DNA of 64,000 nt from Camellia lanceoleosa (taxonomy: Eukaryota; Streptophyta; Magnoliopsida; Ericales; Theaceae): the NCBI GenBank assembly GCA_025200525.1, contig CM045758.1, positions 63,982,598-64,046,597 on the forward strand, given 5' to 3'. The notes below the pieces were generated by a model. The model had not been told where the DNA came from and searched no databases. It worked only from the letters and a program-made list of their open reading frames with translations. The position numbers and the translations under genes are program-made. This document shows, in pieces, positions 10,426 to 59,471 of the stretch; within the stretch, counting starts at the first letter, position 1, and each line of letters begins with the position of its first letter.

Positions 10426-12179
10426 GTGTTTGCTTCACTACCCCTGGTTACGAGATGGAGGACAGTCAGGCACAGATCACTGGTTCAACAGTCGCCAATT
10501 CAGCGGTCACTATCTGCTTCACCTGTTTGCAGTCGGGCCCAGTTTTTTGTTTCCACCACAGAAAGAGAGTATACACTGATTCTAATAGATCAGCACCCCT
10601 CAGTCAGTGTGGAGGATATGATGTGTCAACTTCAACAGACTATCGAGGCCATCCAGCGAGATGCTGCTCGCTAAGCGAAAGTTACCGTTCGCCAAACAGA
10701 GGTTGTAGCCCAATAGGCTGAAGTGATTGCTAGGCTTCAACATAAACACCAACAACAACCACCAGAAGCAGTAGCTTCCGCTTCGCATCCACCCTCAGCT
10801 AGGGTTTTGATACTCGGGGATACAACTAATGTCCAGGAGAATACGGACATTCCAACACGGTCATTCCCACCTCAGACTTCGAAAGCCCCAGCCTACCCAA
10901 CGGACACACCATTCAAGTTTGAGGTCGATCCTACCATCTTGAAAGTGAGCAAGCTTGTGAAGCTTTTCAAACGAGCTCAAGGAGTCAACTCAATCCCAGA
11001 TATAGAGGATGGCTACACAGATTTGGTGGTGACATTGTCGGATAGATTTAAAATGCCTCACATAAACCGCTTCGACGGTTCGGGTGATCCCATGGTCCAC
11101 TTGAGGCTATTTTTAGATATTCTGCGGCCAATGGGCCTGACTAGATTGCAAAAGCTATCCCTCTTTGGCCGGACCCTATTGGGTATTGCGACTATTTGGT
11201 ATGATAAATTGGAGGATTCTGTGAAAATGAGCTGGGAGGAGATGGCCGAGGCCTTCATTGCCCAATATTCTTATAACACTCAAATCGAGGTCATAACTCG
11301 GGATCTCGAGGCAACTAGGCAAGAGCCGAAGGAGGGCTTCTCTGACTTCGTCACTCAATGGAGGGCCAAGGCTTCCATGATGACCACCAAGCCAACTGAG
11401 AAGGACCATATAAGAATGGCCGTTTGTAATCTATAACTGAAGCTGCTGCAGAAGATGATTGTCTTACCCCTACCTACATTTGCTAATCTTCATGAGATAG
11501 GGGTACAGATAATGGATGTGATGAAACAGGCTCTGATTGACCATGAAAAGGAGCAGCCCAAAAGGGCTTTTACACGCAGTTCGAATGCGGCTATGAGTAA
11601 CAACGCAGCTGCGAGGACCTTTGACATTGGTATGGTCACCACCACACCAAAAATAGCCACACCCTTTACCAGCACATTTGGAGCCACCTCACAACCTGCA
11701 AAGTACCCACCCGGGGCCAGAGGGTTTTCACCCCACTCTACATGTCTCTATCTAAAGCCTTGGGGGTGTTGATTAGAAAAAGGCTTCTGAAGCCCCTAGA
11801 ACCGCGCCCATTTCCAAATGCCCTCCCTCCTACACACAACCCGGCCAAGTATTGTGCCTTCCACCAGCAGCATGGTCATGATACCGACCTATGCTTTAGA
11901 CTCCGTCATGAGATTCAGGATCTCATTGGCAATAAAGTGATAGTGCCTCTTGAGAAGCCTAACATCACTACAAATCCTCTCCCACCACATAACCAACCCT
12001 CTCCACCCGGGCAAGTAAACGTGATCCAAACAATGGTCGTTCCATACCACCCCAGCATAAACATTACCCCCTCCCAACTGCCTAAGCCGACGCTGTTCAT
12101 CCCAGAAAGCATAGACTTGTGCATGATAAGAACGTCCATATCCCAACCCGAACTCATGGTGGTGGCTGTAGTAGAATAA
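10426..12179 (+). pseudogene. gag: gag of element A (broken)
   Basis: This encodes the structural Gag protein that forms the retrotransposon particle. The retrotransposon-gag core lies at 10900-11410 (VNSIPDIEDGY, MPHINRFDGSGDPMVHLRLF, LFGRTL, WYDKLEDS, TRQEP). A zinc-knuckle variant, CAFHQQHGHDTDLC (CX2HX4HX4C), follows at about 11850-11892. The reading frame is broken by stops at about 10672 (TAA), 10711 (TAG) and 11434 (TAA), each one C-to-T step from a Gln codon. A frameshift near 11720 moves the knuckle part into another frame. No single ORF covers the gene. Confidence 0.85.
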
Positions 12180-20487: not shown

Positions 20488-23400
20488 TGTAGACACCTCA
20501 TTTTGACCGGCCCTAAGACCTGGCCATTTTATTTTGACCACCCTCACCAAGAAAATCAAATTGAAATTTCAAATTCCAAACCTCACCCATTTTGGCCATC
20601 ACTTATGTGTGTATTAAATTAGGTGTGTGCATATCTTTTAAGTGTGTTTTATAATTGATAACTATTTTTAAAACAAAAGAAAATAAAAACTAAAAAAATA
20701 GAAAAAAATAGAAAATAAAAAAAAAAGAGAAAAGAGAAAAAAATATGGGTGGAATCATAGTGTGTTTTGTTTTAAAAAAGAAAAGAAATGGGGTGGAGCA
20801 TAGTGTGTGTTTTTTAGTAGAATTGTGGAGAATATCATCATAAGAGATAAGGAGGCATGATAAGGGGGGGCAGGTTGGAAGATATAAGAAAAATGCACAC
20901 TCACAAAAAAGGGAGCTGACGGAGAGAAGAAACACACATGGGTGGAGGAGTAGGTGAGGTTTTTAAAATGTAAAAGACGAAAGAGAAGGGAGAAGACCCA
21001 CAAGACCCACGAGGCACAGAGGAACAACACATGCACATACATGCTCTCTCTCTCTAAACCGACAGGGCCACGGCACTCTCTCAGAGCAAGAAACACACAC
21101 CTCACACTACACACAGTCGGATAGAGACACCCACGGCCTGCACACACACACATGGAGGAGGAGAGGAGGACCAACCTCTCTCTCTCTCTTCTCTCTCACC
21201 TCACGGCAGACCCACTTCACTCTCCTTTCTCTCTTTAAGAGCCATGCACCATGATAACACACGGGGGGAGAGGTGAAAGACACCCACACGAGCTCCCTTC
21301 TCTCTCTAAACACACAGGTCCGATCTACACACAGGTCCGATCTACACACAGGTCCAATCTACACACACCATTCGCACCAACACTGTCATGCACCGATGAA
21401 CACAGCACCAACCCTGCGATGCACCGATGAACACAGCACCAACCCTGCACTCACCTCACCACTCCACCCTGCACTCACCGGACCACCTACACAGCACCAC
21501 ACCACCGGAGCTTCACCAGCCACACACCTAGCTCTCTTCTCTCTCTAGGATGAACCCACATGCACAACACACACCAAAATCCATACATCCAAAACAGAGG
21601 TTCTCTCTAGCATTTTCAGGTCTCTAACACACACAGGACCTCACAAAAAAAAAAAAGAGACCCAACACCATACTCATAGATTGGCATGAGAGCCAAAGAG
21701 ATAGAAGAGTACACGGATGCATGAGGAAGAGATACACAGGGTGAAGACACGGGTTAGAGGACTCACAAGAGGGGGACACATGCAAAGAGACCCAAACTCC
21801 CTCTCTTCTCTCTAAACCCTTCATACACAGACACACACGGTGCACATCACAGACCCATGCACACACTCACTCACAGCCCTCATTCACAGCAACACACCAC
21901 ACGGTTCTCTCTCTCTCCCTCACCTCTCTCTCTAACACCAAGCTCACCACACCCACGACCATCACTGCAGACACCCTCACACGGCACCTCTCTCTCTCTC
22001 TCTCTCTCTCTAACCGAGCAAACCCACACACCTTCACATGTCACCTCTCTCTCTCTACAAAGAGACCCACCACCTTTTCTCTCTCTAGAGGGATACCCAT
22101 CTCTCTTTCTCTCTCTCTACAAAGAGACCCACCACCTTTTCTCTCTCTAGAGCCGTGTGTGAGTATGTGATGAGAGAGAGGAAAATGTCCCTGTAAAGAA
22201 TGCTTGCATGATAAAAGTAGTGGATTGATTTTCATTGAAGAATAAATGATTCAAGGATCCATTTGAATTCAACATAGTCAGGGGTTGACATGAAGAGAGC
22301 TGGATCCTCATGGAAGCAGCTAGGGTTGAAATTTGCACATCATCCAATAGTGATTTCCCTGTAAGCCATGCTAGTCAGATTTCAAATCCGATCCTTGGTT
22401 TGCCGCTTGAATCTGGAAAATGTGAATCATGTGGTGTCGCGGAACCCAGGACATGCGAAAAGGAGTGGAATGTGCCAGTGACCAAGTTGTTTCTTTTATT
22501 TTTATTTTGAGTGTTGTGAGGTTTTATTTTATTTTATTTTTCTTCCCTCATCTCTCTCATCGGATCTGTAATATTCAAGTATTGTAATAATTCCCCCACC
22601 CCGCTTCTTTCTATCTCATTCTTTTATCGCTTTCCCTAACTGTGTGTATGTATATATCTGACATGTCATGCATATCCCTGCTTTACATCCATGATCCATG
22701 CATAAGATTTCGCTAAATTTGCATCTTTAAGCTTCAATTGATTATCCCATGATTCTGTGTGCTATCAGATGTTTTGAAATGATTCACATGCCATATTCTA
22801 GAAGCCAAATCTTTAGTGCATCTCATGAGTGAATTGCATTAGGATTCTGTATATAAGATCATGCATATTTTACTAACCTTTGTTTTGTAGCTGTTCGAGG
22901 GACGTCGGTCAATTTGTGAGCTTTTATGCTTTAGCATCTCATTTGTGTGTGTGTTTCTTATTATGTTTAGCATCCTACCATGTGGCTATTTGTTTAAGTG
23001 ATAAACTGTCTGAATGCCTGTGGATGAAGGCTTGTTGTTTGAATTGGAATAATTCAAAGATTGTACGTCTTAAGCCCACTTGATGGTGGCAAACTCAAAC
23101 CCTTTTTCATTTTGACAAACATACATGAAATTGAATTGTTCCAATTTGAGCAAACTAGTCTATACTTGTATGCTTCACATAGTAAATTTTAGGATTTACT
23201 AAAATAATCAGAACATAAACATATAAATAAAATAAAAGTCATATCATGGTTTAGTAGAGGCCGATCTTTCGATCGGGTGAGCGGGGGTGCTCATTATTGA
23301 CCTTCCCCTCTCATACCTAAGGTTCCGAGCCAAGCATCCTTGGTTACGCATTTAACAAAGGGCCTTGGCACCGAGTCATGGGTTTCCTAATTTCCCAAAA

Positions 23401-31941: not shown

Positions 31942-34900
31942 TGTAGACACCTCATTTTGACCGGCCCTAAGACCTGGGCATTTTATTTTGACCACCCTCA
32001 CCAAGAAAATCAAATTGAAATTTCAAATTCCAAACCTCACCCATTTTGGCCATCACTTATGTGTGTATTAAATTAGGTGTGTGCATATCTTTTAAGTGTG
32101 TTTTATAATTGATAACTATTTTTAAAACAAAAGAAAATAAAAATTAAAAAAATAGAAAATAAATAGAAAATAAAAAAAAAAAAAGAGAAAAGAGAAAAAA
32201 ATATGGGTGGAATCATAGTGTGTTTTGTTTTAAAAAAGAAAAGAAATGGGGTGGAGCATAGTGTGTGTTTTTTAGTAGAATTGTGGAGAATATCATCATA
32301 AGAGATAAGGAGGCATGATAAGGGGGGCAGGTTGGAAGATATAAGAAAATGCACACTCACAAAAAAGGGAGCTGACGGAGAGAAGAAACACACATGGGTG
32401 GAGGAGTAGGTGAGGTTTTTAAAATGTAAAAGACGAAAGAGAAGGGAGAAGACCCATGAGACCCACGGGGCACAGAGGAACAACACATGCACATACATGC
32501 TCTCTCTCTCTAAACCGACAGGGCCACGGCACTCTCTCACAGCAAGAAACACACACCTCACACTACACACAGTCGGATAGAGACACCCACGGCCTGCACA
32601 CACACACATGGAGGAGGAGAGGAGGACCAACCTCTCTCTCTCTCTTCTCTCTCACCTCACGGCAGACCCACTTCACTCTCCTTTCTCTCTTTAAGAGCCA
32701 TGCACCATGATCACACACGGAGGGAGAGGTGAAAGACACCCACACGAGCTCCCTTCTCTCTCTAAACACACAGGTCCGATCTACACACAGGTCCAATCTA
32801 CACATACCATTCGCACCAACACTGCCATGCACCGATGAACACAGCACCAACCCTGCCATGCACCGATGAACATAGCACCAACCCTGCACTCACCTCACCA
32901 CTCCACCCTGCACTCACCGGACCACCTACACAGCACCACACCACCGGAGCTTCACCAGCCACACACCTAGCTCTCTTCTCTCTCTAGGATGAACCCACAT
33001 GCACAACACACACCAAAATCCATACATCCAAAACAGAGGTTCTCTCTAGCATTTTCAGGTCTCTAACACACACAGGACCTCACAAAAAAAAAAAAGAGAC
33101 CCAACACCATACTCATAGATTGGCATGAGAGCCAAAGAGATAGAAGAGTACACGGGTGCATGAGGGGGGTGGCATGTGCTCACGGAGGAAGAGATACACA
33201 GGGTGAAGACACGGGTTAGAGGACTCACAAAAGGGGGACACATTCAAAGAGACCCAAACTCCCTCTCTTCTCTCTAAACCCTTCATACACAGACACACAC
33301 GGTGCACATCACAGACCCATGCACACACTCACTCACAGCCCTCATTCACAGCAACACACCACACGGTTCTCTCTCTCTCCCTCACCTCTCTCTCTAACAC
33401 CAAGCTCACCACACCCACGACCATCACTGCAGACACCCTCACACGGCACCTCTCTCTCTCTCTCTCTCTAACCGAGCAAACCCACACACCTTCACATGTC
33501 ACCTCTCTCTCTCTACAAAGAGACCCACCACCTTTTCTCTCTCTAGAGGGATACCCATCTCTCTTTCTCTCTCTCTACAAAGAGACCCACCACCTTTTCT
33601 CTCTCTAGAGCCGTGTGTGAGTATGTGATGAGAGAGAGGAAAATGTCCCTGTAAAGAATGCTTGCATGATAAAAGTAGTGGATTGATTTTCATTGAAGAA
33701 TACATGATTCAAGGATCCATTTGAATTCAACATAGTCAGGGGTTGACATGAAGAGAGCTGGATCCTCATGGAAGCAGCTAGGGTTGAAATTTGCACATCA
33801 TCCAATAGTGATTTTCCTGTAAGCCATGCTAGTCAGATTTCAAATCCAATCCTTGGTTTGCCGCTTGAATCTAGAAAATGTGAATCATGTGGTGTCGCGG
33901 AACCCAGGACATGCGAAAAGGAGTGGAATGTGCCAGTGACCAAGTTGTTTCTTTTATTTTTATTTTGAGTGTTGTGAGGTTTTATTTTATTTTATTTTTC
34001 TTCCCTCATCTCTCTCATCGGATCTGTAATATTCAAGTATTGTAATAATTCCCCCACCCCGCTTCTTTCTATCCCATTCTTTTATCGCTTTCCGTAACTG
34101 TGTGTATGTATATATCTGACATGTCATGCATATCCCTGCTTTACATCCATGATCCATGCATAAGATTTGGCTAAATTTGCATCTTTAAGCTTCAATTGAT
34201 TATCCCATGATTTTGTGTGCTATCAGATGTTTTGAAATGATTCACATGCCATATTCTAGAAGCCAAATCTTTAGTGCATCTCATGAGTGAATTGCATTAG
34301 GATTCTGTATATAAGATCATGCATATTTTATTAACCTTTGTTTTGTAGCTGTTCGAGGGACGTCGGTCAATTTGTGAGCTTTTATGCTTTAGCATCTCAT
34401 TTGTGTGTGTGTTTCTTATTATGTTTAGCATCCTACCATGTGGCTATTTGTTTAAGTGATAAACTGTCTGAATGCTTGTGGATGAAGGCTTGTTGTTTGA
34501 ATTGGAATAATTCAAAGATTGTACGTCTTAAGCCCACTTGATGGTGGCAAACTCAAACCCTTTTTCATTTCGACAAACATACATGAAATTGAATTGTTCC
34601 AATTTGAGCAAACTAGTCTATACTTGTATGCTTCACATAGTAAATTTTAGGATTTACTAAAATAATCAGAACATAAACATATAAAGAAAATAAAAGTCAT
34701 ATCATGGTTTAGTAGAGGCCGATCTTTCGATCGGGTGAGCGGGGGTGCTCATTATTGACCTTTCCCTCTCATACCTAAGGTTCCGAGCCAAGCATCCTTG
34801 GTTACGACGAACAGTGGCCTTGGCACCGAGTCATGGGTTTCCTAATTTCCCAAAATATTAGGTGGCGACTCTGAGATCTGATGACGCAGTCCATTTTTGA

Positions 34901-37352: not shown

Positions 37353-37841
37353 AAAGATGAAGCGAGGTAGTGATGGAAAAGTTAAGCAATGAAGCGTGCA
37401 AATGAAGCCTTGTAATCTTAAATCGCCATTGCCGAAGAAAGAAGAAAGAAGAAAAAGATCCCTCTCTCTCTCTCTCTTTGTTTTTTGTTTTTTTGTTTTT
37501 TTTGTTTTTGTTTTTTTTTTGTTTTGTTTTATTTTTTTTTGTTGAGTCTCTGTAATCGGGGATGTCCTCCCCTGACTTCAATAAAATTAGTTTCTTTTTT
37601 TTGCTCATCACTGGCATGACTGGCATATCACTTTCAGCTTGAAAACAATTTGTTTGATTAAATTTGAGAATGATTGAATTTTTGAAGTCTGAATTAGACA
37701 TTGATTCCATACTGACCTGAATCAAAAAATGACTTAACGAAAGAAGAACGAAGCAAAACGATCCAAACACACTTATATACACTGACTAGTATAAATACAC
37801 CGACTGGTATAAATATACTGATTAGTATGAAAGGAACACAC
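37353..37841 (-). other. Element B between antisense ORF and the D insertion
   Basis: No gene is present. A T/G-rich low-complexity tract (37480-37545) is followed by the inverted GGGGAGGACATCCCC hairpin (37556-37571). From 37765 a GTCAGTGTAT-type array reads on the minus strand into which element D inserted. The interrupted array resumes at 48859. Confidence 0.7.
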
Positions 37842-38995
37842 TGTAGACACCCCATTTTGACCAGCCCTAAGACTTGGGCATTTTAGTTTGACCACCCTCA
37901 CCAAAAAAAACTCAAATTGAAATTTTAAATTCCGAAACTCACCCATTTTGGTCAAATTAAAATGTTTTCATGTAAATTTATCATTTTGTATAATTTTATA
38001 TAATTTTGTGTGTTTGTACAAATTTTTAGGTGTGTTTATATGACATGTGATATTTGACAAAAAATAATAAAAACAAAAAAAAAAGAAAAAGAAAAGAATA
38101 AAAGAATAAAAAAATAGAAAATAAAAAATGGGGCGGTGGCTTTATGGATGGTGGTGGAGGATGAATTGCAAAAGAGAGATATAAGAATGATGGAGGGAGT
38201 GCTCTAAAAAAAAATAGAGTGGGTAGCATTTTGATGATAAAAAGAGGACACCCACTCACCAAGAAGAGACACACACGGCACAACAGCTGAGTGGAGGGAG
38301 GGACATGCACCCACTGACACCCATGGAGAGATATACCAACCTCTCTCTCTCTCGGGTTTCTCTCTGAGGGGGCCACCATCACACCATACATTCACAACAC
38401 AGACCCACGGGAGAGACCCAGACTTCTCTCGGTGGTGTTCATATGAGTGATCATGAGTGATATTGTTTAGAGAGAAAATGGGTTGAGGAGGAGGAGAGAG
38501 TTCTTTTGATGTTTGGGTAGAAACGCACACATGGAGGGGGAGATACAGCACTGAGCACCCACGGGAACTTCTCTCCCTCTCTTCTCTCTCAAAACCCACG
38601 AGGCTACACACATACACATCACAAACCATGCAGACAGACGCACGGTTTTGAAGGAGGGGGATACGGAGGAGAGTCCATACACACTGCCATACACCCATCA
38701 CCTACACACTCTAACCCATCACACCCAGCACCCCATATACAGCAGCAACACACTCATCGGCATCTCCCTCTCTCTTCACCATGCGCCACCTCCATCTTCA
38801 TGCACAACACCACCACCTTCATCTTCATGCACCATCTTCACCAACCCTGCACTCACCTTACCACCCCACTTGACTCTCCTCTCTCTCTAAAAAAACAACC
38901 CATGACATGCATATTGATAGACACCCAGCGGCACCTCACCGAGAGACCCGGCACACACTCACTCAGATACACCCATGCACACACCCACGGCATCA

Positions 38996-39038
<43 letters not shown>

Positions 39039-40678
39039 CTTAGAGAGAGAAAAGGTGGTAGGTGGGATGAGTGTTTCTTTGGCAGGCCCAGATGGTCGTG
39101 TTTTTGGGGGAGCACTTGCTGGTCTATTAGTTGCTGCTGGCCCAGTTCAGGATGTTTCAATGAAGGTCATATCATTTTCTCAACAAGGATCTAGAGCGAT
39201 ATGCATTCTTTCAGCTAATGGAGCAATTTCAAATGTCACCCTTCACCAAGTTAATTCTTCCGGTAGTACTTTGACATATGAGGGTCGTTTTGAGATACTT
39301 TCCTTGACTGGAACATTTGTGATTACTGATAGTGGAGGAACAAAAAGCAGATCTGGTGGGATTCATGGTTACAATATAGATATTTTAAGAAATGGGCCCA
39401 TGGTTACATATGGACTATTTGTGTGTTTCTGGGTGTGTCTTAAGCCCACATTTTGTTTTAGTTTCATGTGCTGGATTGGAGATCTTTGCTAAATGACCAG
39501 GGGTTTAAAATGTTGGGCCCAATTTTTAGCGGAGAAAAGGAGTGGAATGCGCCAATGGGTTACTGAGTTGATATTCTTTCTTTTATTTTTATTTTGAGTG
39601 TTTGTGAGAATTTATTTTATTTTATTATTTCTCTCCTCCCTCCCTTATTCGGATCTGTAATAATTCAAGTATTGTAATAATTCCCCCACCCCGCTTCTTT
39701 CTATCCCATTCTTTTATCGCTTTCCCTAACTGTGTGTATGTATATATCTGACATGCCATGCATATCCATGCTTTACATTTATGTCTCATGCATTAAGATT
39801 CGGCTATATTTACATGTGTGGATTTAATCAATTCTTCTGTGATTCTATGCGTTACCCCATGTTTTTGAGATGATTCACATGCCATATTTTAGAAGCCGAA
39901 TCTTTAGTGCATCTCATGAGTGAATTGCATTAGGATTTTGTATATAAGATCATGCATATTTTACTAACTTTGTTTTGTAGTTGTTCGAGGGTCGTCGGTA
40001 AATCTGTGAGTTTTTATGCTTTAGCATCTTATTTATGTGTGATTTTCTTATTATGTTTAGCATCCTACCATGTGGCTATTTGCTTAAGTGATAAACTGTT
40101 TGAATGCCTGTGGATGAAGGCTTGTTGTTTGAATTGGAATAATTCAATAAATGTACGTCTTAAGCCCACTTTGTCAAGTGGCAAATTCAAACCTTTTTTC
40201 GGAAAACAAACATGAAGTTGAATTGTTCCAATTTGAGCAAACTAGTCTATACTTGTATGCTTCACATAGTAAATTTTAGGATTTACTAAAATAATCAGAA
40301 CATGAACATATAAAGAAAATAAAAGTCATATCATGGTTTAGTAGAGGCCGATCTTTTGATCGGGTGAGCGGGGGTGCTCATTATTGACCTTCCCCTCTCA
40401 TACCTAAGGTTCCGAGCCAAGCATCCTTGGTTCTGACGAGCGATGGCCTTTGGCACCGAGTCATGGGTTTCTAATTTCCCAAAATATTAGGTGGCGACTC
40501 GATATCTCGATGACCTTGATCCATTTTGACAAAATTGCAATAAAATGGATTTTCAATAAAAGTTGCCAAATCTGGACTCTCATCTATGTTTCACATTGCA
40601 CTCGTGAAACTTGAGATCAAAGAGATCTCGGGAGTCCGAACTGTTTAACGCGCGCGGGTACCCCCCGGGCATGTTACA
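37842..40678 (+). repeat. 5' LTR of element D (2.84 kb)
   Basis: It runs TGTAGACACCCC...GGGCATGTTACA. It contains an A-rich tract (38055-38130), several CT/GA-rich stretches, a (TC)n run at 39000-39036 that is 18 bp longer than in the other LTR, and the captured AHL domain (39061-39362). Next comes an unrecognised insert (39363-39533), then the U5 region shared with A, B and C. Confidence 0.92.
39061..39362 (+). pseudogene. Captured, circularly permuted PPC/DUF296 domain of an AHL protein, 5' LTR of D
   Basis: The ORF encodes MSVSLAGPDGRVFGG...LLVAAGPVQ (39067-39150) followed by DVSMKVISFSQQGSRAICIL, SANGAISNVTL, LTYEGRFEILSLTGTF and SGGTKSRSGG (39151-39360). These are the conserved words of the PPC domain of AT-hook motif nuclear-localised proteins, closest to the AHL1 type. 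In real AHL proteins the SFSQQ...SGG part comes first and MSVSLAG...GPVQ second; here they are swapped. The word ggtgggat, native at the SGG-MSV junction, stands at both ends (39061-39068, 39355-39362). No intron interrupts it. No AT-hook is present, so it is not a functional AHL. Confidence 0.88.
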
Positions 40679-41141
40679 GTTTTTGGCGACTCTGCTAGGG
40701 ATTTATGAAACCTTGACTCGAACTCCATGATATGACTTTTATTTTCAATTATATGTTTATTGCATTGCATGCATTGGTGCACTTAAAGTCCCTGTGTTAC
40801 CCAGATGCTGGTGGGAGCACAAGCACACTTTTTGTGACACTACACCTTTCTCTACGTTACTTTAGAGGCCTTGTGTTATAACCTTTGGAGATCTGTCAAA
40901 AGGGTAGCTTTGCTATGTAGCCCTGCTATCTAGCTTTGCTATCTAAGGTTCTCAGACTTCGAAGAGAGGCTATTTGACTCTTCTGATTTCCTGGGATCTT
41001 TATTGGTTATGACTCAAAGGACTCTTTGGTAACGTCACCTTGACTTTAACCCTTAGAGTATAGCTACCCTTGTACATATAGTGAGCTATAGTACCTTTCA
41101 AATTAGGACAGGATGCTTTCCCATTGCTAGGATGTATGATA
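40679..41141 (+). other. Leader of element D with primer-binding site (40684-40701)
   Basis: The primer site TGGCGACTCTGCTAGGGA is the best preserved of the four. The leader is non-coding and matches that of C up to about 41140, where a deletion joins it to aRNH sequence. Confidence 0.8.
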
Positions 41142-42379
41142 CCGTGATTTGAAGTCTCCCATGATCAATCAAAGTGTAAGGCTTGCATAGCCAAATTGGA
41201 AATAGCCCTTGAACTTGGGGCCATGATGTGATTCAAATAAAGACAGCCCTTAAAACTAGGGGCAATAAAGGTCGAATATGATTCAAATGGAAACAGCCCT
41301 TGAACTAGGGGCAATGACATGATTCAAAATGGAGGCAGCCCTTCAACTAGGGGCAATAAGGTCAAATATGATTTAGATTGGAAATAGCCCTTGAACTAGG
41401 GGCAATGATGTGATCCAGATTGAAAACAGACCTTGAACTCAGGGCAGTGAATGTGATATCGATTTGAAACAGCCCTTGAACTAGGGGCAAAAGTGTGAGG
41501 CTTGCATAGCTGAAATAGAGGTAGCCCTTGAACTAGGGACAATAAGGTACCACTCTTGAGAGGCTCGCTGGACCGAAAACCCGGAAGGGCGACCTAGGCA
41601 AAAGTTAGAGCGCAAAAAAAATTAAAAAAAAAAGAAAAAAAAAAGAAAGAAAAATAAAAAGAAAAATGAAAAGCTCGCAAGGTTGAAAACTCGAAAGGGC
41701 GGCTTTGGCAAAAGTTAGAGCATAAAAGGGGAGTGTCAATACTCGAGTGAACCTTAGCCAAAACTATGTAGGGTCTGTGATTCAGATTGGAAGCAACCCT
41801 TGAACTAGGGGCAAGAAGGTCGGATGTGATTTAGATTTGAAGCAGTCCTTGAACTAGGGGCAAAAGGTTGGATGTGATCAAAGAGTTAAAACTGAATCGT
41901 TTCCCAATGAAGACCGCCCAGAAAGGCAAAACCCGAAATTTGAGAGAATGAATTTTATTATTGAAGGACAGTCGAGTTCTTATCCACTACACTAGGGGCA
42001 ACATTAGAGGCAAAATCAGACCCAAGTAGCCTAGTCCCTACATCATCATATCCACCGGTCAAGTATAGCAGTTTCTTATAGTTGGCTTAGAGATTCCCCA
42101 ATCAACATGGACAAAGTTAAAATGAAAGTAAACCTTGAGAGGCTCGCTGGGTTGAAAAACCGGAAGGGCGACCTAGGCAAAAGTTAGAGCAGAAAAAAAA
42201 AAAACTCAAAAGAAATAAAAAAAAAAATGAAATGAACAAAATGAAAATCAAAATGAAAAAAAAAATAATAAAAATAGAAAAATGAAAAGCTCGCAAGGTT
42301 GAAAACCCGAGAGGGCGGCTTTGGCAAAAGTTAGAGCACAAAAGGAGAGTGTCAATACCCGAGTGAACCTTAGCCCGAA
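41142..42379 (+). repeat. aRNH minisatellite and duplicated integrase-tail block of D
   Basis: The aRNH remnant starts at 41142 (accgtgatttgaagtctccc). Units around gcccttgaactaggggcaat repeat to about 41550, with two more at 41790 and 41850. The gagaggctcgctgg and gctcgcaaggttgaaaac block occurs at 41559-41760 and again at 42133-42370. The integrase-tail remnant lies between them at 42005-42120. The layout is identical to that of C. Confidence 0.8.
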
Positions 42380-42415
42380 CTACGATGGCCTGATTCCTAT
42401 CTTTGGGATACGTAG
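42380..42415 (+). other. Conserved hairpin element, copy D1
   Basis: CTACG (42380-42384) pairs with CGTAG (42411-42415); inner TTCC and GGGA words can also pair. It lies just after the integrase-tail block. Confidence 0.65.
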
Positions 42416-43750
42416 GTAGCTTCATCTCAAAGTTCGGCCCTAATAATTTTTCAACTCATTCATCTTGTCCATGTTTGCTTGGTGTGTCTTTAGTCGACTT
42501 GGTTGTCCTATCCGTGTTTGATTGGTATATCTTCGTTCTGCTCAGTTCAATTGGTTTGATTTAACTTGGTTCAGTTTAGTTCGATTCGGTTTGGCGGTTC
42601 GGTTCGGTTCGGTCCGGTCCGATTTTTGCTCGACTTCATTCGGTTCGGTTTGGCTCGGTTCGGTTGGCTTGGTTCAGATATCACCTTTGATTATCTGGCT
42701 TGGGACTATGCACCCCAATAGTTGATTCCATGTTAGTTGAGTAGTGACCATTTGCAAAAATAGATTTTGATTAATTTGAATGAAACTGACTAATTTTTCT
42801 CGAAAATTGTTCCATTTTTGCAAAACTTGGACCATTCTTTGGATTTGAAAAGGAAAAATTTTCAGTGCTCACAGTTTAGCTTACATGATTTGAAACAGAA
42901 AATGGAATAAGTATGCTAATCTAACTCTTATGTTGATCAAAATATTTTTACAAAAAAAATCAAGAAAAAAAATCAAGGCAATAAATTAGGGGCATAGTCG
43001 AGTCAGTGATTCTATCTTCTCCCCCCGCTCGAGTCAACTCGTCAGTGTATATGAGTGTGTATTCATACCAGTTAGTGTATATGAGTGTGTCTTCATATGA
43101 GTGTGTATTCGTACCAGTCAGTGTATTTATACCAGTCAGGGTATTCATACCGATCAGTGTATGTCAGTGTGTATTCATACCAGTTAGTGTATTTTATACC
43201 AGTCAGCGTATAAAAGTGTGTTTGGATTATTTTGGCTTCATTTTTCTTACGTTGAGTCAGTTTTATTTTTATCCAGGTCAGTATGGACCAATGTCCAATT
43301 CAGAGTTCAAATTTCAAATCAATCTCAAAATTCAATCAAAACAAAATTATTTTCAAACTCAAAGTGATATGCCAGTCACGCCATTGATAAGCAAAAAAGA
43401 AATTGATTTTGTTACAGTCAGGGGATGATATCCCCGATTACAGAGACTCCAAAAACAAACGAAAAAAAAAAGAAAAAAACAGCCAGAAAAGATATATCCG
43501 TATATGTTTGTGTATAGATCCGTATATGTCTGTGTCGTATATACCTGTATATATACTGTATATGTTTGTGTATATATCTGTATATATCTGTCTATATGTT
43601 GTCTGTATATGTATATATGTATATTGTATGTATATATGTATGTATTTTTGTCTGTATATGAACATATGTATACCATATATGCATGTCTGTGTATATTGTC
43701 GTATTTGTATGTATTTTGTCTATACATGGTATATGTATATGGTATTTGGT
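42416..43750 (+). repeat. GGTTCGG, GTCAGTGTAT and TATATG arrays of element D
   Basis: 42541-42680 is a degenerate ggttcgg array, 43038-43215 a gtcagtgtat-type array, 43424-43438 a GGGGAT-GAT-ATCCCC hairpin, and 43490-43745 a TATATG-type array. The antisense ORF and tRNA-like units present between these parts in B and C have been deleted. Frames seen here only translate the repeats. Confidence 0.8.
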
Positions 43751-43924
43751 TCGAACATACAATTCATTCTTTCATTCTGTGCATCTATCGCACAATAATC
43801 TCACTTCGTTCACCTACCACACAAATTTCAATTTCAATTCCATCGCACTATCTTGTGCAAATTCAAATTCAAATACAAATCCAAATTCAATCGTGCTATC
43901 TTGCGCATTGCACTATCTTGTGCA

Positions 43925-44432
43925 CTCCCCGGTCTAGGAGACCTTAAATCCTACGGGTGTCTAGGAGACCTTAAATCCTACTGGTGTCTAGGAGACCTTA
44001 AATCCTATCTGGTGTCTAGGAGACCTTAAATCCTACTGGTGTCTAGGAGACCTTAAATCCTATCGGTGTCTAGGAGACCTAAAATCCTACTGGTGTCTAG
44101 GAGACCTTAAATCCTACTGGTGTCTAGGAGACCTTAAATCCTATCGGTCTGGGAGACCTTAAATCCTACTGGTGTCTAGGAGACCTGAAATCCTACTGGT
44201 GTCTAGGAGACCTAAAATCCTACTGGTGTCTAGGAGACCTTAAATCCTATCTGGTGTCTAGGAGACCTTAAATCCTATCTGGTGTCTAGGAGACCTTAAA
44301 TCCTATCTGGTGTCTAGGAGACCTTAAATCCTATCTGGTGTCTAGGAGACCTTAAATCCTATCTGGTGTCTAGGAGACCTAAAATCCTGTTGGTGTCTAG
44401 GAGACCTTAAATCCTACAGTGTCTAGAACCCC
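43925..44432 (+). repeat. GTCTAGGAGACC minisatellite of element D, about 18 copies
   Basis: Units of about 26-29 bp, ctggtgtctaggagacc plus ttaaatcctat, share the inverted core GTCT-AGG-AGAC with the array of C but have a longer, different linker. One further unit stands at 44899-44925, on the other side of the next array. Confidence 0.9.
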
Positions 44433-44898
44433 CTTTCAGTTGTGCGGTATGCACATCTGTATGCGATGCAACCCCTTTCATTTGTGCGGTATGCACATTT
44501 GTATGCGATGCAACCCTCTTTCAGTTGTGCGGTATGCACATCTCAGTATCTGATCTAACCTTCCTTTTCGGTATGCACATCTGTATATCGATCTAACCCT
44601 CTTTTCGATTTATGCGGTATGCACATCTGTATCGATGCAACCCCTTTCGGTTATGCGGTATGCATATCTCAGATCGATGCAACCCTCTTTCGGTTATGCG
44701 GTATGCACATCTCAGATGCGATCAACCCCTTTCGGTTATGCGGTATGCACATCTCAGTATCTTGATGCAACCCTCTTTCGGTTGTGCGGTATGCATGTGT
44801 ATCGCGATGCAACCCCTTTCACTTGTGCGGTATCTTGCAGTGTATGCGATACAACCCTTTCACTTGTGCGGTATGCATGTATCTTGATCTACCCCTTT
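44433..44898 (+). repeat. 42-bp minisatellite nested in the D array, about 11 copies
   Basis: Units contain tttcggttatgcggtatgca, catctcagatcgatgc and aacccc. The block sits inside the GTCTAGGAGACC array and has no counterpart in B or C. The open frames across it are repeat translations. Confidence 0.9.
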
Positions 44899-45864
44899 CA
44901 CGGTCTAGGAGACCTTAAATCCTATAAAGGTGCAATTCCTTTGGTATTTGTCGTACCCGAACGACTTTAGGTGGTCTGGTATAGTCAGTTGCCTGTGATT
45001 GCAATGAGTTCCTAGGAGACCAACTGCGACGGTGGAAACTAGAGTTCGAATGGCCGAGACCTAGAACGCAAAAGGTTCAGGATTTCCGAGACTAAAGTCT
45101 GGTTTAAATACCCAGGGGTGTATCCCCGGCTTGAAATCTGTATGGCAGCCCCATAGGTTGAGGTAGCTTTGTATGCGCCTCAACTCTGGAAACTGAACCA
45201 ACCTAGTCTGTCACCTCGTTGGAGAATAGGGAAAGTTGTAAATATGATCAGAAAAGCGGCATCCGTGGCCACCCAAATCGGTTAACAATGAGTGCTTTCT
45301 GCATTTCACACCATCCAAATCGGTTATCAACGAAAAGTGCTTTGTCGTTCAACACCACCCAAGTGGTTAACAACAGCAGGTGCGCCTGTCTGTTTACACC
45401 ACCCCTTCTCCTCTCGCGTGAGACGCGTTAGGATGTATATTCACTCGGTTAAAAACAGCAGGTGCGCCTGTCTGTTTATACCACCCTTTCTCCTCTCGCG
45501 TGAGACGTGTTAGGATGTTGATTTCTCTTGGTTGAGGTCTTCCATCTCTTGCATAATCATGAATTACCCAAATCGGCTTCGCGTAAGGCGTATAAGTCCA
45601 ACTTTCAAATCGGCTTCGCGTAAGGCGTATAAGTCCAACTTTCAAACCGGCTTCGCGTAAGGCGTATAAGTCCAACATTCAAACCGGCTTCGCGTAAGGC
45701 GTATAAGTCCAACTTTCAAACCGGCTTCGCGTAGCGTGTAAGTCCAACTTTCAAACCGGCATCACATGGTGTATAAGTCCAATTTTCAAGCTGGCTTCGC
45801 GAAGCGTGTAAGTCCAACTTTCAAACTGCATTGTGAGTATATCATTTGCATTCTTGCCCCTGAA
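44899..45864 (+). repeat. Conserved block and pre-polypurine arrays of element D
   Basis: 44935-45270 matches the conserved non-coding block of C. 45270-45520 holds about four degenerate ggttaacaacagcaggtgcg units with CGCGT-GAG-ACGCG inverted repeats. 45563-45830 holds seven units of about 38 bp with ccggcttcgcgtaaggcgta. No gene is present. Confidence 0.8.
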
Positions 45865-46039
45865 CTACGCTGGTTTGATTCCTTGCAAAGGGATACGTAG
45901 ACAACCTTCGGGTTCAATTACATGCATTGCATTTTGTGTGATTGCCCAAGTCTTACGGCCTTGTCAAAAGGGTCGTCTTCTGGCTTTGACATTCACTCAC
46001 GTCATTTCATGACTTCGAGCTCTGTCAAAGAGGGGCAAC
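45865..46039 (+). other. Hairpin element D2, inverted LTR-start copy and polypurine tract of D
   Basis: The hairpin is at 45865-45900. The inverted partner of the LTR start is at 45943-45978 (about 31 of 37 positions match by eye, allowing two gaps). The polypurine tract agaggggcaac is at 46029-46039. Confidence 0.75.
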
Positions 46040-48858
46040 TGTAGACACCCCATTTTGACCAGCCCTAAGACTTGGGCATTTTAGTTTGACCACCCTCACC
46101 AAAAAAAAACTCAAATTGAAATTTTAAATTCCGAAACTCACCCATTTTGGTCAAATTAAAATGTTTTTATGTAAATTTATCATTTTGTATAATTTTATAT
46201 AATTTTGTGTGTTTGTACAAATTTTTAGGTGTGTTTATATGACATGTGATATTTGACAAAAAATAATAAAAACAAAAAAAAAGAAAAAGAAAAGAATAAA
46301 AGAATAAAAAAATAGAAAATAAAAAATGGGGCGGTGGCTTTATGGATGGTGGTGGAGGATGAATTGCAAAAGAGAGATATAAGAATGATGGAGGGAGTGC
46401 TCTAAAAAAAATAGAGTGGGTAGCATTTTGATGATAAAAAGAGGACACCCACTCACCAAGAAGAGACACACACGGCACAACAGCTGAGTGGAGGGAGGGA
46501 CATGCACCCACTGACACCCATGGAGAGATATACCAACCTCTCTCTCTCTCGGGTTTCTCTCTGAGGGGGCCACCATCACACCATACATTCACAACACAGA
46601 CCCACGGGAGAGACCCAGACTTCTCTCGGTGGTGTTCATATGAGTGATCATGAGTGATATTGTTTAGAGAGAAAATGGGTTGAGGAGGAGGAGAGAGTTC
46701 TTTTGATGTTTGGGTAGAAACGCACACATGGAGGGGGAGATACAACACTGAGCACCCACGGGAACTTCTCTCCCTCTCTTCTCTCTCAAAACCCACGAGG
46801 CTACACACATACACATCACAAACCATGCAGACAGACGCACGGTTTTGAAGGAGGGGGATACGGAGGAGAGTCCATACACACTGCCATACACCCATCACCT
46901 ACACACTCTAACCCATCACACCCAGCACCCCATATACAGCAGCAACACACTCATCGGCATCTCCCTCTCTCTTCACCATGCGCCACCTCCATCTTCATGC
47001 ACAACACCACCACCTTCATCTTCATGCACCATCTTCACCAACCCTGCACTCACCTTACCACCCCACTTGACTCTCCTCTCTCTCTAAAAAAACAACCCAT
47101 GACATGCATATTGATAGACACCCAGCGGCACCTCACCGAGAGACCCGGCACACACTCACTCAGATACACCCATGCACACACCCACGGCATCAACCTCTCT
47201 CTCTCTCTCTCTCTCTCTCTCGGCTTAGAGAGAGAAAAGGTGGTAGGTGGGATGAGTGTTTCTTTGGCAGGCCCAGATGGTCGTGTTTTTGGGGGAGCAC
47301 TTGCTGGTCTATTAGTTGCTGCTGGCCCAGTTCAGGATGTTTCAATGAATGTCATATCATTTTCTCAACAAGGATCTAGAGCGATATGCATTCTTTCAGC
47401 TAATGGAGCAATTTCAAATGTCACCCTTCACCAAGTTAATTCTTCCGGTAGTACTTTGACATATGAGGGTCGTTTTGAGATACTTTCCTTGACTGGAACA
47501 TTTGTGATTACTGATAGTGGAGGAACAAAAAGCAGATCTGGTGGGATTCATGGTTACAATATAGATATTTTAAGAAATGGGCCCATGGTTACATATGGAC
47601 TATTTGTGTGTTTCTGGGTGTGTCTTAAGCCCACATTTTGTTTTAGTTTCATGGGCTGGATTGGAGATCTTTGCTAAATGACCAGGGGTTTAAAATGTTG
47701 GGCCCAATTTTTAGCGGAGAAAAGGAGTGGAATGCGCCAATGGGTTACTGAGTTGATATTCTTTCTTTTATTTTTATTTTGAGTGTTTGTGAGAATTTAT
47801 TTTATTTTATTATTTCTCTCCTCCCTCCCTTATTCGGATCTGTAATAATTCAAGTATTGTAATAATTCCCCCACCCCGCTTCTTTCTATCCCATTCTTTT
47901 ATCGCTTTCCCTAACTGTGTGTATGTATATATCTGACATGCCATGCATATCCATGCTTTACATTTATGTCTCATGCATTAAGATTCGGCTATATTTACAT
48001 GTGTGGATTTAATCAATTCTTCTGTGATTCTATGCGCTACCCCATGTTTTTGAGATGATTCACATGCCATATTTTAGAAGCCGAATCTTTAGTGCATCTC
48101 ATGAGTGAATTGCATTAGGATTTTGTATATAAGATCATGCATATTTTACTAACTTTGTTTTGTAGCTGTTCGAGGGTTGTCGGTAAATCTGTGAGTTTTT
48201 ATGCTTTAGCATCTCATTTATGTGTGATTTTCTTATTATGTTTAGCATCCTACCATGTGGCTATTTGCTTAAGTGATAAACTGTTTGAATGCCTGTGGAT
48301 GAAGGCTTGTTGTTTGAATTGGAATAATTCAATAAATGTACGTCTTAAGCCCACTTTGTCAAGTGGCAAATTCAAACCTTTTTTCGGAAAACAAACATGA
48401 AGTTGAATTGTTCCAATTTGAGCAAACTAGTCTATACTTGTATGCTTCACATAGTAAATTTTAGGATTTACTAAAATAATCAGAACATGAACATATAAAG
48501 AAAATAAAAGTCATATCATGGTTTAGTAGAGGCCGATCTTTTGATCGGGTGGCGAAGTGCTCATTATTGACCTTCCTCTCATACCTAAGGTTCCGAGCCA
48601 AGCATCCTTGGTTCTGACGACAAGGCCTTTGGCACCGAGTCATGGGTTTCCTAATTTCCCAAAATATTAGGTGGCGACTCTGAGATCTGATGACGCAGTC
48701 CATTTTTGACAAAATTGCAATAAAATGGATTTTCAATAAAAGTTGCCAAATCTGGACTCTCATCTATGTTTCACATTGCACTCGTGAAACTTGAGATCAA
48801 AGAGATCTCGGGAGTCCGAACTGTTTAACACGTGCGGGTACCCCCCGGGCATGTTACA
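46040..48858 (+). repeat. 3' LTR of element D
   Basis: It is 18 bp shorter than the 5' copy because of the (TC)n run. Otherwise it is nearly identical up to about 48540. A 170-bp patch (48545-48710) differs at many positions from 40370-40540 and here matches element C better. Confidence 0.92.
47246..47547 (+). pseudogene. Captured permuted AHL PPC domain, 3' LTR of D
   Basis: This copy has the same length (302 bp) and order as 39061-39362, with ggtgggat at both ends (47246-47253, 47540-47547). One visible coding change makes DVSMK into DVSMN. It shows that the capture was present in the element before this insertion. Confidence 0.88.
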
Positions 48859-49532
48859 CACACTTATATACACTGACTGGTATGAATACACACTTATATA
48901 CACTGAATAGTTGACTCGAGCGGCGGAGGAGACAGAATCTCTAACTCGACTATGCCCCTAGTTCATTGCCTTGACCCCTTTTTTTTGTCTCTTGATTTTT
49001 TGTAAACATGTTTTGATCAACATGAGAGTTAGATTAGCATACTTATTCCATTTTCTGTTTCAAATCATGTAAGCTAAACTGTGAGTACTGAAAATTTTCC
49101 CTTTTCAAATCCAAAGAATGGTCCAAGTTTTGCAAAAATGGAACAATTTTTGAGAAAAAATTAGTCAGCTTCATTCAAATTAATCAAAACCTATTTTTGC
49201 AAATGGCCACTACTCAACTAACATGGAATCAACCATTGGGGTGCATAGTCCCAAACCAAATAATCAAAGGTGATACCTGAACCAAGCTAACCGAACCAAG
49301 CCAATTCGAACCAAATAAAGTCGAGCAAAACTGGACCGGACCAAACCGAACAGCCAAACCGAATCGAACCAAATTGAACCAAGTTAAATCGAACCAATTG
49401 AACTGAGCAGAACGAAGATACACCAATCAATCACGGATAGGACAACCAAGTCGACTAAAGATACACCAATCAAGCATGGACGAGATGAATGAGTTGAAAA
49501 ATTATTAGGGCCGAACTTCAAGATGAAGCTAC
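48859..49532 (-). repeat. Element B: array remnant, AT-rich spacer and GGTTCGG array
   Basis: 48859-48915 completes the GTCAGTGTAT-type array cut by D. 49265-49410 is the inverted ggttcgg array, seen as gaaccgaacc-type words. No gene is present. Confidence 0.75.
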
Positions 49533-51335: not shown

Positions 51336-54028
51336 CTAGCTATCCCCCAAGTTCATTGACCCAGTGTTGTTAGACTTTGTAGAACCTGGTGGAGTGATGA
51401 TCTTGTTGTCAATCAGGTCTTGAATTTTATGGCGAAGGTAAAAACAACGATCAGTGTCATGGCCAAGTTGCTGATGGAAGTCACAATACTTGGTAGCATC
51501 ATACTTAGCTGGAAGGCGATCAGGGAGGGGTCGATAATCAAGGGGTTTGAGATGGCCTTTTCCTATGAGGATTTGGAGAGCTTTACACAAGGTCATGTAA
51601 AGGGGATTGAAGATGCGGTTACCAGTCCTGGAAGTATTGTGAAGAATTGGCGGTGTGTTGGGTTTGATAATCTCTTACGAGTGTAGGACTGGAGCTAGAA
51701 GGGGTGTTTCTGGTACAACATCCTTTTTTATGGCTTACCCCTTGGATCAAAATGCTCCCAACTTGAGCGACAAAAGTGTCATCCACAGTCTTTGTAACAA
51801 CTGCAAGCACTTGCTGTTTTTCAACCCTTTGACTTTTAAAGCCTTAATAGCCCATTGGAGATGTGCATAAGGATCAATACTTACCCTAGCTTCATTTTTG
51901 CCACTTGCTTCAGTTTTGCCAGGGGATTGGGTAGTTGTATCGGAGTGAGGTCCACTTATTGTTAACATGTCATCACCCGGACTTAAGATACCGTCGGGTT
52001 TGCCCTTTCCAATTGTAGCTCGCCCCAAGATTGAGGAGCTTTTTGACGTGAAATTTCTGGCACATGATGTGGTCGATGACGGAGCCAAGATCCCAAAGGC
52101 TAAATTTGCCACAGTGCTCTGAAGATCTTCAATCATGCTCAACAACTTAGAATTAGTGGGTTTGACTATTAGTGCCTGCGAGGTATTTGAACCAACTTGG
52201 TCCGAGTGAACTGGTTGGGCTGGGCTTTTTGGAGTGGGTTGGACTGGAATTAGACTATTAGGGAGTTCAAGTTTTGGGAGTTGAGACGATTGGGGTTCAG
52301 GTGCATCCATCATACACAAGTCCATGTTTTCTGGAATGAGCACCTCAGGCTTGGGTAAATGGATGGGTGTGATATAGATACTGGGGTTAAAGGTGGATGA
52401 AAGTGTATGGATGAGGTTAAGATGAGGAGGTGGTGGAATTCTGTCATGGGGCGGCAACGGGTTGGTAGTGACGTTGGGTTTTGGTGGTTGTGGGGGAGCT
52501 ATGACTTTATTGTCTATGAGATTTTGGATCTCCGGTCTGTGTCATGTCCGGGTTGTTGGTGAAAAGCACAGTGTTTGGTAGGGTCATGTTTGGCTGGGAG
52601 AGGTTCGGGAAGAGGTCGGGGGTCCAAAGGCTTCAAATACCCTCTTTTTGTCAAGATATTCATTGCCTTGGAAAGTGTCATATAGAGAGGGGTGAATGTT
52701 CTGCTTGGGGCTTGGGTTGTGTTCGTTGTTTGTGGGTTGGCATTGGCAAATGGGTTAGCTATTTTGGTGGTGGTGATGGTAGTGACCGAATTAACCTCAG
52801 AAGGTCTCACGACTGTACTACTATTAGTAGCATTGGGACTGCGACCAAAAGGCTTCCGAATAGGTTCCTTGTTGTTCATGATGACTCCCTGTTTGATGGC
52901 ATCCTCTATTTGGACCCCTATCTCCTTTAAGTCATTAAAACTGAAGAGCGGGAGGAATATCATTTTTTGTAACATCTTTCCATGCAGATTTCTGACTATC
53001 ATACGGATTTGCTCTTTTTCAGGTGGTCTGTTGGTCATCATTGTTGCTTTTGCCCTCTATCTGGTGATAAAGGCCACGGAACTTTCATTGGGCTCTTGAC
53101 GAGTAGTCTCCAATTCCTGAGTAGTCACTTCAATCTGGGTGTTATAAGCATACTGGGTGATAAAGGCCCCGGCCAACTCTTCCCAACATTGTTTTATCGA
53201 GTCTTCTAACTTGGCATACCAGATGGCAGCCACTCCTGACAAAGTTCGCCCGAATAAAGAGAGTTTTTGCGGACGAGTCAAACCCATAGGCTTTAAGACA
53301 TTAGAAAATAGGCGAATATGCACCATTGGGTCGCCAGAGCCATCAAACCTATCAATGTGTGGCATTTTGAACCATTCTGGCAATTTCACAGCTGTCTCAG
53401 TGTACCCGTCTTCGATATCCGGGATTGAATTAACTCCTTGTGCCTGTTTGAAAAGTTTTTCCAACTTGGCCAGCTTCAACATAGTTGAGTCAAACTCAGG
53501 TGCTTTAGAGGGAAGGAGCCCTCCCACTGGTTGTGGAAGAGGAAATGATCCTCCTGAAGTTTGTACGGGAACCCTTAGGTCTTCTGATGAGTTAAGTTCG
53601 GGAAACTCGTTAGCTGGTGGAGGTGGAGGTGGAACTTGATGAGTCACCGGAGGTGGTTGAGTAATGAACGCCCCAGATGAGCGTTGCAGTTCAGCAAGAG
53701 TATTGCCTTGAGCGGCAAGAGTAGTGCCTTGGGCAGCAACTATAGTGGCAACGATATCCATGCTCCGTTAAAGAGCCAATAGTATGTCTACTATATTTTT
53801 TGGAATTTGAGCCATCACTAATTCTGGTGAGTTGAGTGGTAATGATCTAGCAGGTGAAGAAGGGGTATTCTGGACAGTTGATGAAGCTTTTGCTTTTCTT
53901 CCTGTAGCTGGTGGTAAAGAAACTAACACTGGCTGACCCTGAACCAAATCTGCACTTTTACAAAGTCTACCAACGCGAGTCCACAGAACTTGGGGGACAT
54001 CAGACCTTTCGGAAGCTATAATGCCCAA
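51336..54028 (-). pseudogene. gag: gag of element B with a duplicated zinc-knuckle module
   Basis: The frame starts at ATG 54028 (Pro/Ala-rich N-terminus), passes a stop at about 53768 into MDIVATIVAAQG, and continues into the gag core (GVNSIPDIEDGY, MPHIDRFDGSGDPMVHIRLF, LFGRTLSGVAAIWY). One stop at 53057-53059 looks like a Trp-to-stop change. A first knuckle module (MTLSKAMNILTKRG at 52681, CAFHQQPGHDTDR) is damaged by a small deletion near 52515. About 1.09 kb on, a second module (MTLCKALQILIGKG at 51596, CDFHQQLGHDTDRC) is intact and shares the frame of the 52457-51747 segment. Compared with gag of A, B is less damaged but has this duplication. Confidence 0.85.
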
Positions 54029-57985: not shown

Positions 57986-59471
57986 TTAAAGAAGAAAGGA
58001 TGAAAATCTATCACCAAACCTTTGACATTCTGATTCCTAGGTTTGAGAAGCTAACATCACACATCTATTAAGAGAGAGCAACAGATTCATTGACGCCTTG
58101 TTAACTCTATCTTCGATGATAGACATCCCTTTGGAAATCCAGATGCGTCCGATCATTATTGAACAGAGGTCTTGGCTCGCCTATGAGTTAATCGCCACAA
58201 TAGATGAAGTACAAGATCAAAACCCCTGGTACTATGATGCTTGGAACTTGTTAGAAAAGGAGGTTTATCCACTAGGGGCAAATGCCAAAGATAAAAGAGC
58301 AATACGGCGAATAGTTGCTCAGTTTATCATCTGTGGAGGTAAATTGTATAAACAGGGCCATCTGGGAATGCATAAACTGTGTGTTGATGAAGAAGAGTCG
58401 AAGCGCTTAATGGAGGCCATCCACGTTGGAGAGTGTGGATTGCACATGAGCGGAGTGATGCTAGCTCGGAAGATTCTCAGACAGGGTTACTACTGGTCAA
58501 CCATGGAGGGGGATTGTATTGGTTTTGTTCGGCGATGCCACAAATGGCAGATCCATGCAAATCGCATGAACATCCCGCTATCGAAGCTGTACAACATGAC
58601 TTCACCGTGGCCATTTTCAGTCTGGGGAATTGATGTTATTGGGACAGTTACTTTGAAAGGGTTAAATGGGCATGAGTATATCCTGGTGGCGATAGACTGC
58701 TTTACAAAGTGGGTCAAGGCCCAATCCTACGCAGTACTGAAAGCATCGCACGTAGCCAAGTTCATTAGGAATAATATCATCTGTCGTTATGGAGTCCCGA
58801 ATAAGATCATCTCGGATAATGGTTCCCACTTCAAGAAGGAAGTGATCGACTTGTTGGAGAAATACCACGTGGCTTTTCATAAGTCATCCACATATCGGCC
58901 GCAAACCAACGGAGCTGTTAAGGCCACCAATAAGAATATCAAGCACATTCTACAGAAGATGGTGGAAACCTACATGGACTGGCCGGACAAACTGCCATTT
59001 GCTCTTTGGGGCTACAGAACGTCAATTTGAACATCTACTGGGGCAACTCCGTATTCTCTGGTTTATGGGATGGAGGTTGTTCTGCCAATTGAAGTTGAAG
59101 TTCTGTCGCTGCGGGTTATGGCTGAGTGCTAGATAGCGGAAGCAGATTGGCAGCGAAGCAAGTTTGAAGCACTTATGCTGTTCGACGAGAGCAGGTTGAA
59201 AGCACTATACCACGTCCAAGGTTATCAATGAAGGATTGCCAGGGCTTTCAAGAAGAAGTTTAAGTCTAGGAATCTGAAATAAGGGGATTTGGTGCTCAAA
59301 GACAACCGAGCTCCCATCCATGACCCTAGGGGCAAGTTCAGACCTAATTGGACTGGTCCTTACATCATCAAATCTATTTGGTCGAGTGGAGCTGTCATTC
59401 TTATGGATTTAGATGGCCTTGAATTCTCTCAACCGATCAACATGGACAAGTTGAAGACATATTACCCTTAA
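57986..59471 (+). pseudogene. aRNH end and integrase of element A
   Basis: After a short stop-interrupted aRNH tail, integrase starts near 58098. The zinc-binding region has the two histidines (HVGECGLH) and one cysteine pair position, but CHKC has become CHKW. The catalytic core has WGIDVIG (first Asp), SDNGSHF (second Asp) and TYRPQTNGAVKATNK, where the catalytic Glu before ATNK is Lys (codon AAG 58920-58922). Stops at 59028-59030 (TGA), near 59130 (TAG), 59229 (TGA) and 59280 (TAA) break the C-terminal half. The final block is RGKFRPNWTGPYIIKSIW ... INMDKLKTYYP, ending at 59471. The enzyme cannot be active. Confidence 0.9.

Follow-up and report, generated by a model that had tools for sequence, protein, structure and literature searches.

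Permuted exons of an AHL gene in the LTRs of a plant retrotransposon, probably copied from a circular RNA

In both LTRs of an LTR retrotransposon, here called element D, the last base of exon 4 of an AHL gene is joined directly to the first base of exon 3 of the same gene, with the intron between the two exons missing. We propose, with a rough probability of 0.84 on the sequence evidence given below, that this segment of exons 3 and 4 was reverse-transcribed from a back-spliced circular RNA of the AHL gene. ‘The window’ refers to the whole analysed stretch of 64,000 nt, which is C1:63982598-64046597 of its own 3.0 Gb genome, and the whole-genome searches were run in that genome.

Captured AHL segment in both LTRs of element D

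Element D spans 37842..48858 on the plus strand, with CACAC at either side (37837-37841 and 48859-48863). Its 5′ LTR (37842..40678, +) is 2,837 nt long and runs from TGTAGACACC to GGCATGTTACA, and its 3′ LTR (46040..48858, +) is 2,819 nt long. The LTR pair and the target-site duplication (CACAC) enclose the captured segment. The stretch after 40678 is presumably PBS-like. In the internal part (40679-46039), there is no open frame of at least 200 aa, and no reverse transcriptase was found in D. Much of this region consists of short tandem arrays (43932-44444 and about 41180-41540), with 27-28 bp units of the type ‘taggagaccttaaatcctac..’ and also repeated ‘gcccttgaactaggggcaa’.

Aligned with each other, the two LTRs differ by 31 substitutions at 2,817 aligned sites and by 8 gap runs. 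Fifteen of the 31 substitutions fall within one 23-bp cluster (40501-40523 vs 48681-48703), which looks more like a small replacement or a misalignment than point mutations. Elsewhere in the window, frames of neighbouring retroelements lie at 10717-11433 (+), 53057-53767 (-) and 58047-59027 (+), and are gag-like (PF03732, twice) or integrase-like (PF00665, PF17921).

The captured segment has 302 nt, at 39061-39362 (+) in the 5′ LTR and at 47246..47547 (+) in the 3′ LTR, and the two copies differ at a single position (1/302; 39165 G/T). The word GGTGGGAT, which marks the start and the end of the copied stretch, is found four times in the window (39061-39068, 39355-39362, 47246 and 47540). Read along the plus strand of the 5′ LTR, the segment begins with the 3′ part of AHL exon 4 (39061..39150, GGMSV..GPVQ), 90 nt that are identical to C1:71589141-71589230 of the donor gene described below. 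At 39150..39151, the last base of exon 4 meets the first base of exon 3 in a joint of the back-splice type. Exon 3 follows as a whole (39151..39282, DVSMKV..TYE; 132 nt with 7 differences from C1:71583862-71583993 of the donor), and is continued by the 5′ part of exon 4 (39283..39354, GRFEIL..KSRS; 72 nt with 1 difference). The second GGTGGGAT (39355..39362) is the 3′ junction word, and capture-free relatives have GGTGGGGT in its place.

The captured frame is open, reading GGMSVSL..GPVQ and then DVSMKV..KSRSGG, within an open stretch of 323 aa in the 5′ LTR and 319 aa in the 3′ LTR. The Pfam profile PF03479 (PCC/DUF296) matches the captured 100 aa with an E value of 2.2e-17, as two stretches. 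When the protein is cut at the swap point, its first 30 aa match profile positions 82-109 (E 1.2e-4, with a score of 22.8 bits that misses the curated cut-off of 25), and its last 70 aa match positions 12-75 (E 4.3e-12). Because positions 82-109 precede positions 12-75 in D, the order of the domain is swapped. A PDB search with the captured protein gave weak matches only, with a best E value of 0.003.

The initial annotation had read the segment as an AHL domain with its two parts exchanged in both LTRs, as the frame and the profile order confirm, and had described a unit of 294 nt, or 98 codons, with an open frame, for which the coordinates, the length and the joint are all correct. It also placed GGTGGGAT at both ends, which holds, and took the word to span the native junction of the two parts, which does not hold since in the donor gene the word sits inside exon 4. 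In all likelihood, the segment is carried along as a passenger, and we ascribe no function to it.

Other gene pieces are seen in LTRs of this kind. Both LTRs of element C (22289-22508 and 33747-33966) have a host-gene-like frame, ..SQISNPILGLPLES(G/R)KCESCGVAEPRTCE, which we take to be NRPE1/NRPD1-like and which runs into GCGAAAAGGAG at about the point where the part shared with the LTR of D begins. In five partial relatives of the 5′ flank of D (L044, L045, L047, L049 and L050), the same NRPE1-like piece comes after an apparent intron end, ..TCTACA(T/C)TCTCAG|GAAATTTGC, unlike in element C. This apparent intron end suggests that uptake into the LTRs of D’s family may also involve gene pieces that are unspliced or genomic.

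Donor gene and possible templates

The donor is an AHL gene at C1:71575267-71590.5k, on the same contig as the window and at a distance of about 7.5 Mb. According to tblastn, it has five exons in the normal order, each present once in 40.5 kb (C1:71562000-71602500); for exons 1, 2 and 5, the outer boundaries are approximate. Exon 3 is C1:71583862-71583993 (132 nt, TATCAG|GATGTT..TATGAG|GTGTGG), and exon 4 is C1:71589069-71589230 (162 nt, TTTGCAG|GGTCGT..GTTCAG|GTTAGA), and both exons are bounded by GT/AG splice sites on either side. Together, the two exons make 132 + 162 = 294 nt, exactly the captured unit, which includes no exon 2 or exon 5 sequence. The 5,075-bp intron 3 is gone in D without a scar at 39282|39283.

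The initial annotation had raised the possibilities that 39150/39151 joins the end of one exon to the start of an upstream exon and that introns are precisely absent. With the splice sites of the donor read, exon 4 indeed ends and exon 3 begins at this joint, and intron 3 is missing to the base. Neither of the two contrary findings named in that annotation is seen, as the breakpoint at the joint retains no intron sequence and the exon order of the donor is normal.

The copies in D agree with the permuted donor exons at 286/294 sites in the 5′ LTR and 285/294 sites in the 3′ LTR. All 8 differences of the 5′ LTR copy from the donor are common to both LTRs and therefore predate the present insertion. 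The capture may thus have preceded D, and it and the present insertion of D may be separate events. At these 8 sites, a paralogue on C7 has the donor base six times, the element base once (39309) and neither once (39216), which indicates that most changes arose on the element’s side. The differences are unevenly distributed, with 7/132 in exon 3 and 1/162 in exon 4 (Fisher p 0.024), and this unevenness is unexplained.

The exon edges of the donor recur across plants. The window is read as plant DNA by its AHL sequence, since PMC4209074 describes the AHL family as land-plant-specific; according to the same paper, the GRFEIL motif always opens an exon in Type-B PPC domains. A protein search with the 98 aa in native order gave 233 matches, of which the best 120 were used; many are frames on raw plant DNA, which carry one exon with the intron read through. 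Among the matches listed for the native-order and permuted searches, 222 proteins were surveyed for their edges. The residue before GRFEIL was E, as in spliced sequence, in 107 of the 199 scored, Q from an intron CAG read through in 82, and another in 10. After PVQ (189 scored), the normal GSF type was found in 90, V with unrelated sequence, as expected from reading into a GT donor, in 85, and others in 14. The counts at these two boundaries point to the same exon edges across plants. Before the D of DVSMK (82 scored), GE was found in 67, Q in 7 and others in 8.

The back-spliced exonic RNA suggested by the initial annotation is supported by the exact exon edges and the absent intron, while the circle itself we infer. 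No long inverted repeats that pair introns 2 and 4 of the donor were found, the minus-strand matches being 10-23 nt. Inverted repeats are described as rare around plant circRNAs in the portions used here of a review (PMC11276256) and a tea-plant paper (PMC9861842).

The main rival to the circle is a linear RNA with the order E3-E4-E3-E4, generated by trans-splicing of two pre-mRNAs, from which the reverse transcriptase would have entered in the second exon 4 and exited in the first at the same word. Such an RNA would have the identical joint of exon 4 to exon 3 and the identical loss of the intron. However, the copy ends after exactly one period and includes no part of exon 2 or exon 5. A circle predicts this outcome, whereas a long linear repeat only allows it. 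Moreover, exon-repeat trans-splicing is far rarer than exonic circles. We consider this explanation improbable, though the best placed of the alternatives.

Less likely still is a jump of the enzyme within an ordinary linear mRNA, which it would have left at the start of exon 3 to land on the end of exon 4. The intron loss agrees with a spliced template, and the two linear junctions have 3 nt in common (AG|G), enough for a jump, but both landings would have to fall exactly on exon edges. In a 708-nt stretch of the donor mRNA, from the tail of exon 2 to exon 5, there are 176,941 distinct backward joins between points at least 20 nt apart, and in 3 of them an exon end meets exactly the start of that exon or of one before it. 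When at least 3 nt of microhomology is demanded, 3,132 joins are left, with the same 3 exact-edge joins among them. These figures are a count, with no model of enzyme behaviour. They replace a broader figure, 6 edge pairs among 390,617, which relied on approximate boundaries for exons 1, 2 and 5.

A rearrangement at the DNA level, either through an excised genomic circle or through a gene copy broken and rejoined inside the element, is very unlikely. The gene piece that seems intron-bearing in other LTRs of D’s family (L044, L045, L047, L049 and L050) would favour it, but the absence of intron 3 to the base excludes genomic DNA as the template. The excised circle that the initial annotation had allowed as a direct source is thereby ruled out, and a spliced retrocopy rearranged at a later time would need further breaks at exon edges.

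A host source already in this form, be it a gene with permuted order or a duplication of exons 3 and 4 in the donor, found no support and can hardly be credited, given that each donor exon is present once, that the full-length permuted order occurs in the genome only in D among the best candidates, and that the joint of exon 4 to exon 3 is in 0/222 proteins among the matches listed. In the whole genome, the permuted 100 aa gave 65 matches, and among the best candidates scored the full length was reached only in the two LTRs of D. Fourteen of the 65 (nine and five), which have matches past an exon edge or are doubtful, were read individually and turned out to be native exons beside an intron. 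No second permuted unit was present in the best 120 of 313 matches from the protein collection, where the top coverage was 67%, and the viral contig and genome contig collections had no AHL loci.

Junctions with the element and a possible route

The circular template that we favour has to be connected to the element at two junctions. Downstream of the captured segment, the 3′ flank (39363..39560, +) is 84-86% identical to seven capture-free LTRs (L017-L023; longer stretches L035-L041). A whole-genome DNA search with this flank gave 40 matches, consisting of the two of D, the seven LTRs and 31 that cover the far part only. The seven relatives align from the first base of the flank, and none has the capture. 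Directly before TCATGG, all seven have GTGGTGGGGT, where D has TCTGGTGGGAT. Their word at this site, GGTGGGGT (7/7), has one mismatch to the GGTGGGAT of donor exon 4. Since GGTGGGGT stands in the relatives where D has the second GGTGGGAT, the element family and the donor exon have almost the same word at the 3′ junction.

The earlier suggestion of a circle copied a little more than once is better worded as a single lap of 294 nt and an additional 8-nt word, which at the 3′ junction is present in the element family itself as GGTGGGGT (7/7 capture-free relatives).

Upstream, the CT-rich 5′ flank (38625..39057, +) is 64-65% identical over the whole stretch to the U3 of another LTR subtype (L045, L046), and shorter parts of it are 66-68% similar to four further LTRs (L044, L047, L049, L050). 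With a query of 38780-39060, the whole-genome search gave 70 matches, full-length only in the two LTRs of D. Under permissive scoring, the alignment reaches 39057 in L045 and L046, and 38990-39036 in L044/L048, L047, L049 and L050. Because the stretch is CT-rich and of low complexity, this likeness is weak evidence. No clear shared word is seen at the 5′ junction, where D has AAGGTGGTA|GGTGGGAT and the other subtype has AAGGTTGTG.

Judged from these alignments, the U3 of D resembles different subtypes on its upstream and downstream sides, and the capture is at or close to the point where they meet. Separate events could also have brought the two subtypes together; the U3s observed are generally mosaic. 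That the captured part of the LTR is U3 is itself inferred.

Capture during reverse transcription could have proceeded as follows. A 294-nt circle of exons 3 and 4 would have been available at the site of element reverse transcription. While extending the minus strand through U3, the enzyme would switch at GGTGGG(A/G)T onto the circle, make one lap, meet the same word again and return to element RNA. The RNA on which it landed would probably have belonged to a different U3 subtype. Once the LTRs were completed, the segment would be present at both ends of the element. The normal cycle gives both LTRs the same U3, so that a single event accounts for the two copies.

In its fullest form, this route makes a host exonic circRNA the bridge template in a three-template chimera, the enzyme leaving the element at GGTGGG(A/G)T, making one 294-nt lap and going onto the other U3 subtype, as a first plant case. 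We hold this fuller account to be slightly favoured over its negation. If it is true, it shows how circular RNAs can enter genomes.

Comparison with known systems

Circular RNA-derived pseudogenes are known in mouse and human (Dong et al. 2016, as cited in the parts used here of PMC5408686, PMC5345220 and PMC6965350). According to the same parts of these sources, mouse circRFWD2 retrocopies have a back-splice joint of exon 6 to exon 2, mammalian retrocopies of this origin are mostly without poly(A), one of the reviews mentions LTR sequence beside the mouse copies, and two describe the integration route as unknown. In D, by comparison, a route through template switching in LTR retrotransposition can be inferred, because the element, the donor gene, the exon edges, the capture-free sites and both LTRs are all readable.

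If the proposed origin is true, circular RNAs have access to the site of LTR element copying, and plant genomes can preserve fossils of circRNA content. The capture in D also places an exon-permuted coding sequence into the LTR of a mobile element. A simple scan of LTRs for an exon n end followed by an exon m start, with m not after n, could measure how frequent such events are.

A plant copy derived from a circRNA was not found among the titles and abstract openings listed in our literature search, which covered freely accessible journal papers. In the portions covered, a maize paper (PMC11810925) only cites Dong 2016, PMC5867839 has one passing mention, and neither these two nor PMC8628893 contains a plant case. 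The word pseudogene has 0 occurrences in the covered text of the plant circRNA review PMC11276256, as do AHL and AT-hook in the main text, as covered, of the tea-plant circRNA paper PMC9861842.

Gene capture by LTR elements through template switching is represented by maize Bs1 and by Tan et al. 2016 (both as described in PMC5408686), and template switching in plant LTR elements by BARE-2 and Veju (PMC13317346, in part). In these cases, as is proposed for D, host or foreign sequence joins the element cDNA during reverse transcription, and PMC5408686 describes short shared words as the means. In BARE-2, as in D, the change is within the LTR (PMC13317346, same part). Unlike the circle proposed for D, the templates in the covered parts of PMC5408686 and PMC13317346 are mRNA, the RNA of another element or unknown sequence; the latter source has 0 occurrences of circRNA and 0 of back-splic in its covered text.

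Retrozymes are, like D, plant LTR retroelements linked to circular RNA, but their circle is their own and ribozyme-made (PMC11722881 and PMC9695139, in the parts used), whereas for D we propose a host exonic circle from splicing.

With the mammalian circRNA-derived pseudogenes, the capture in D has in common a back-splice-type joint at exact exon edges, the lack of the inner intron, the lack of anything outside the circularised exons, and a linear parent gene. It differs from them in being in a plant and inside the U3 of an LTR element, hence in both LTRs, and in having one whole lap and a 3′ switch site that can be read from capture-free relatives. Thus, the capture in D belongs to a known class of fossil, and is new in being from a plant, in lying within an LTR and in having a readable route.
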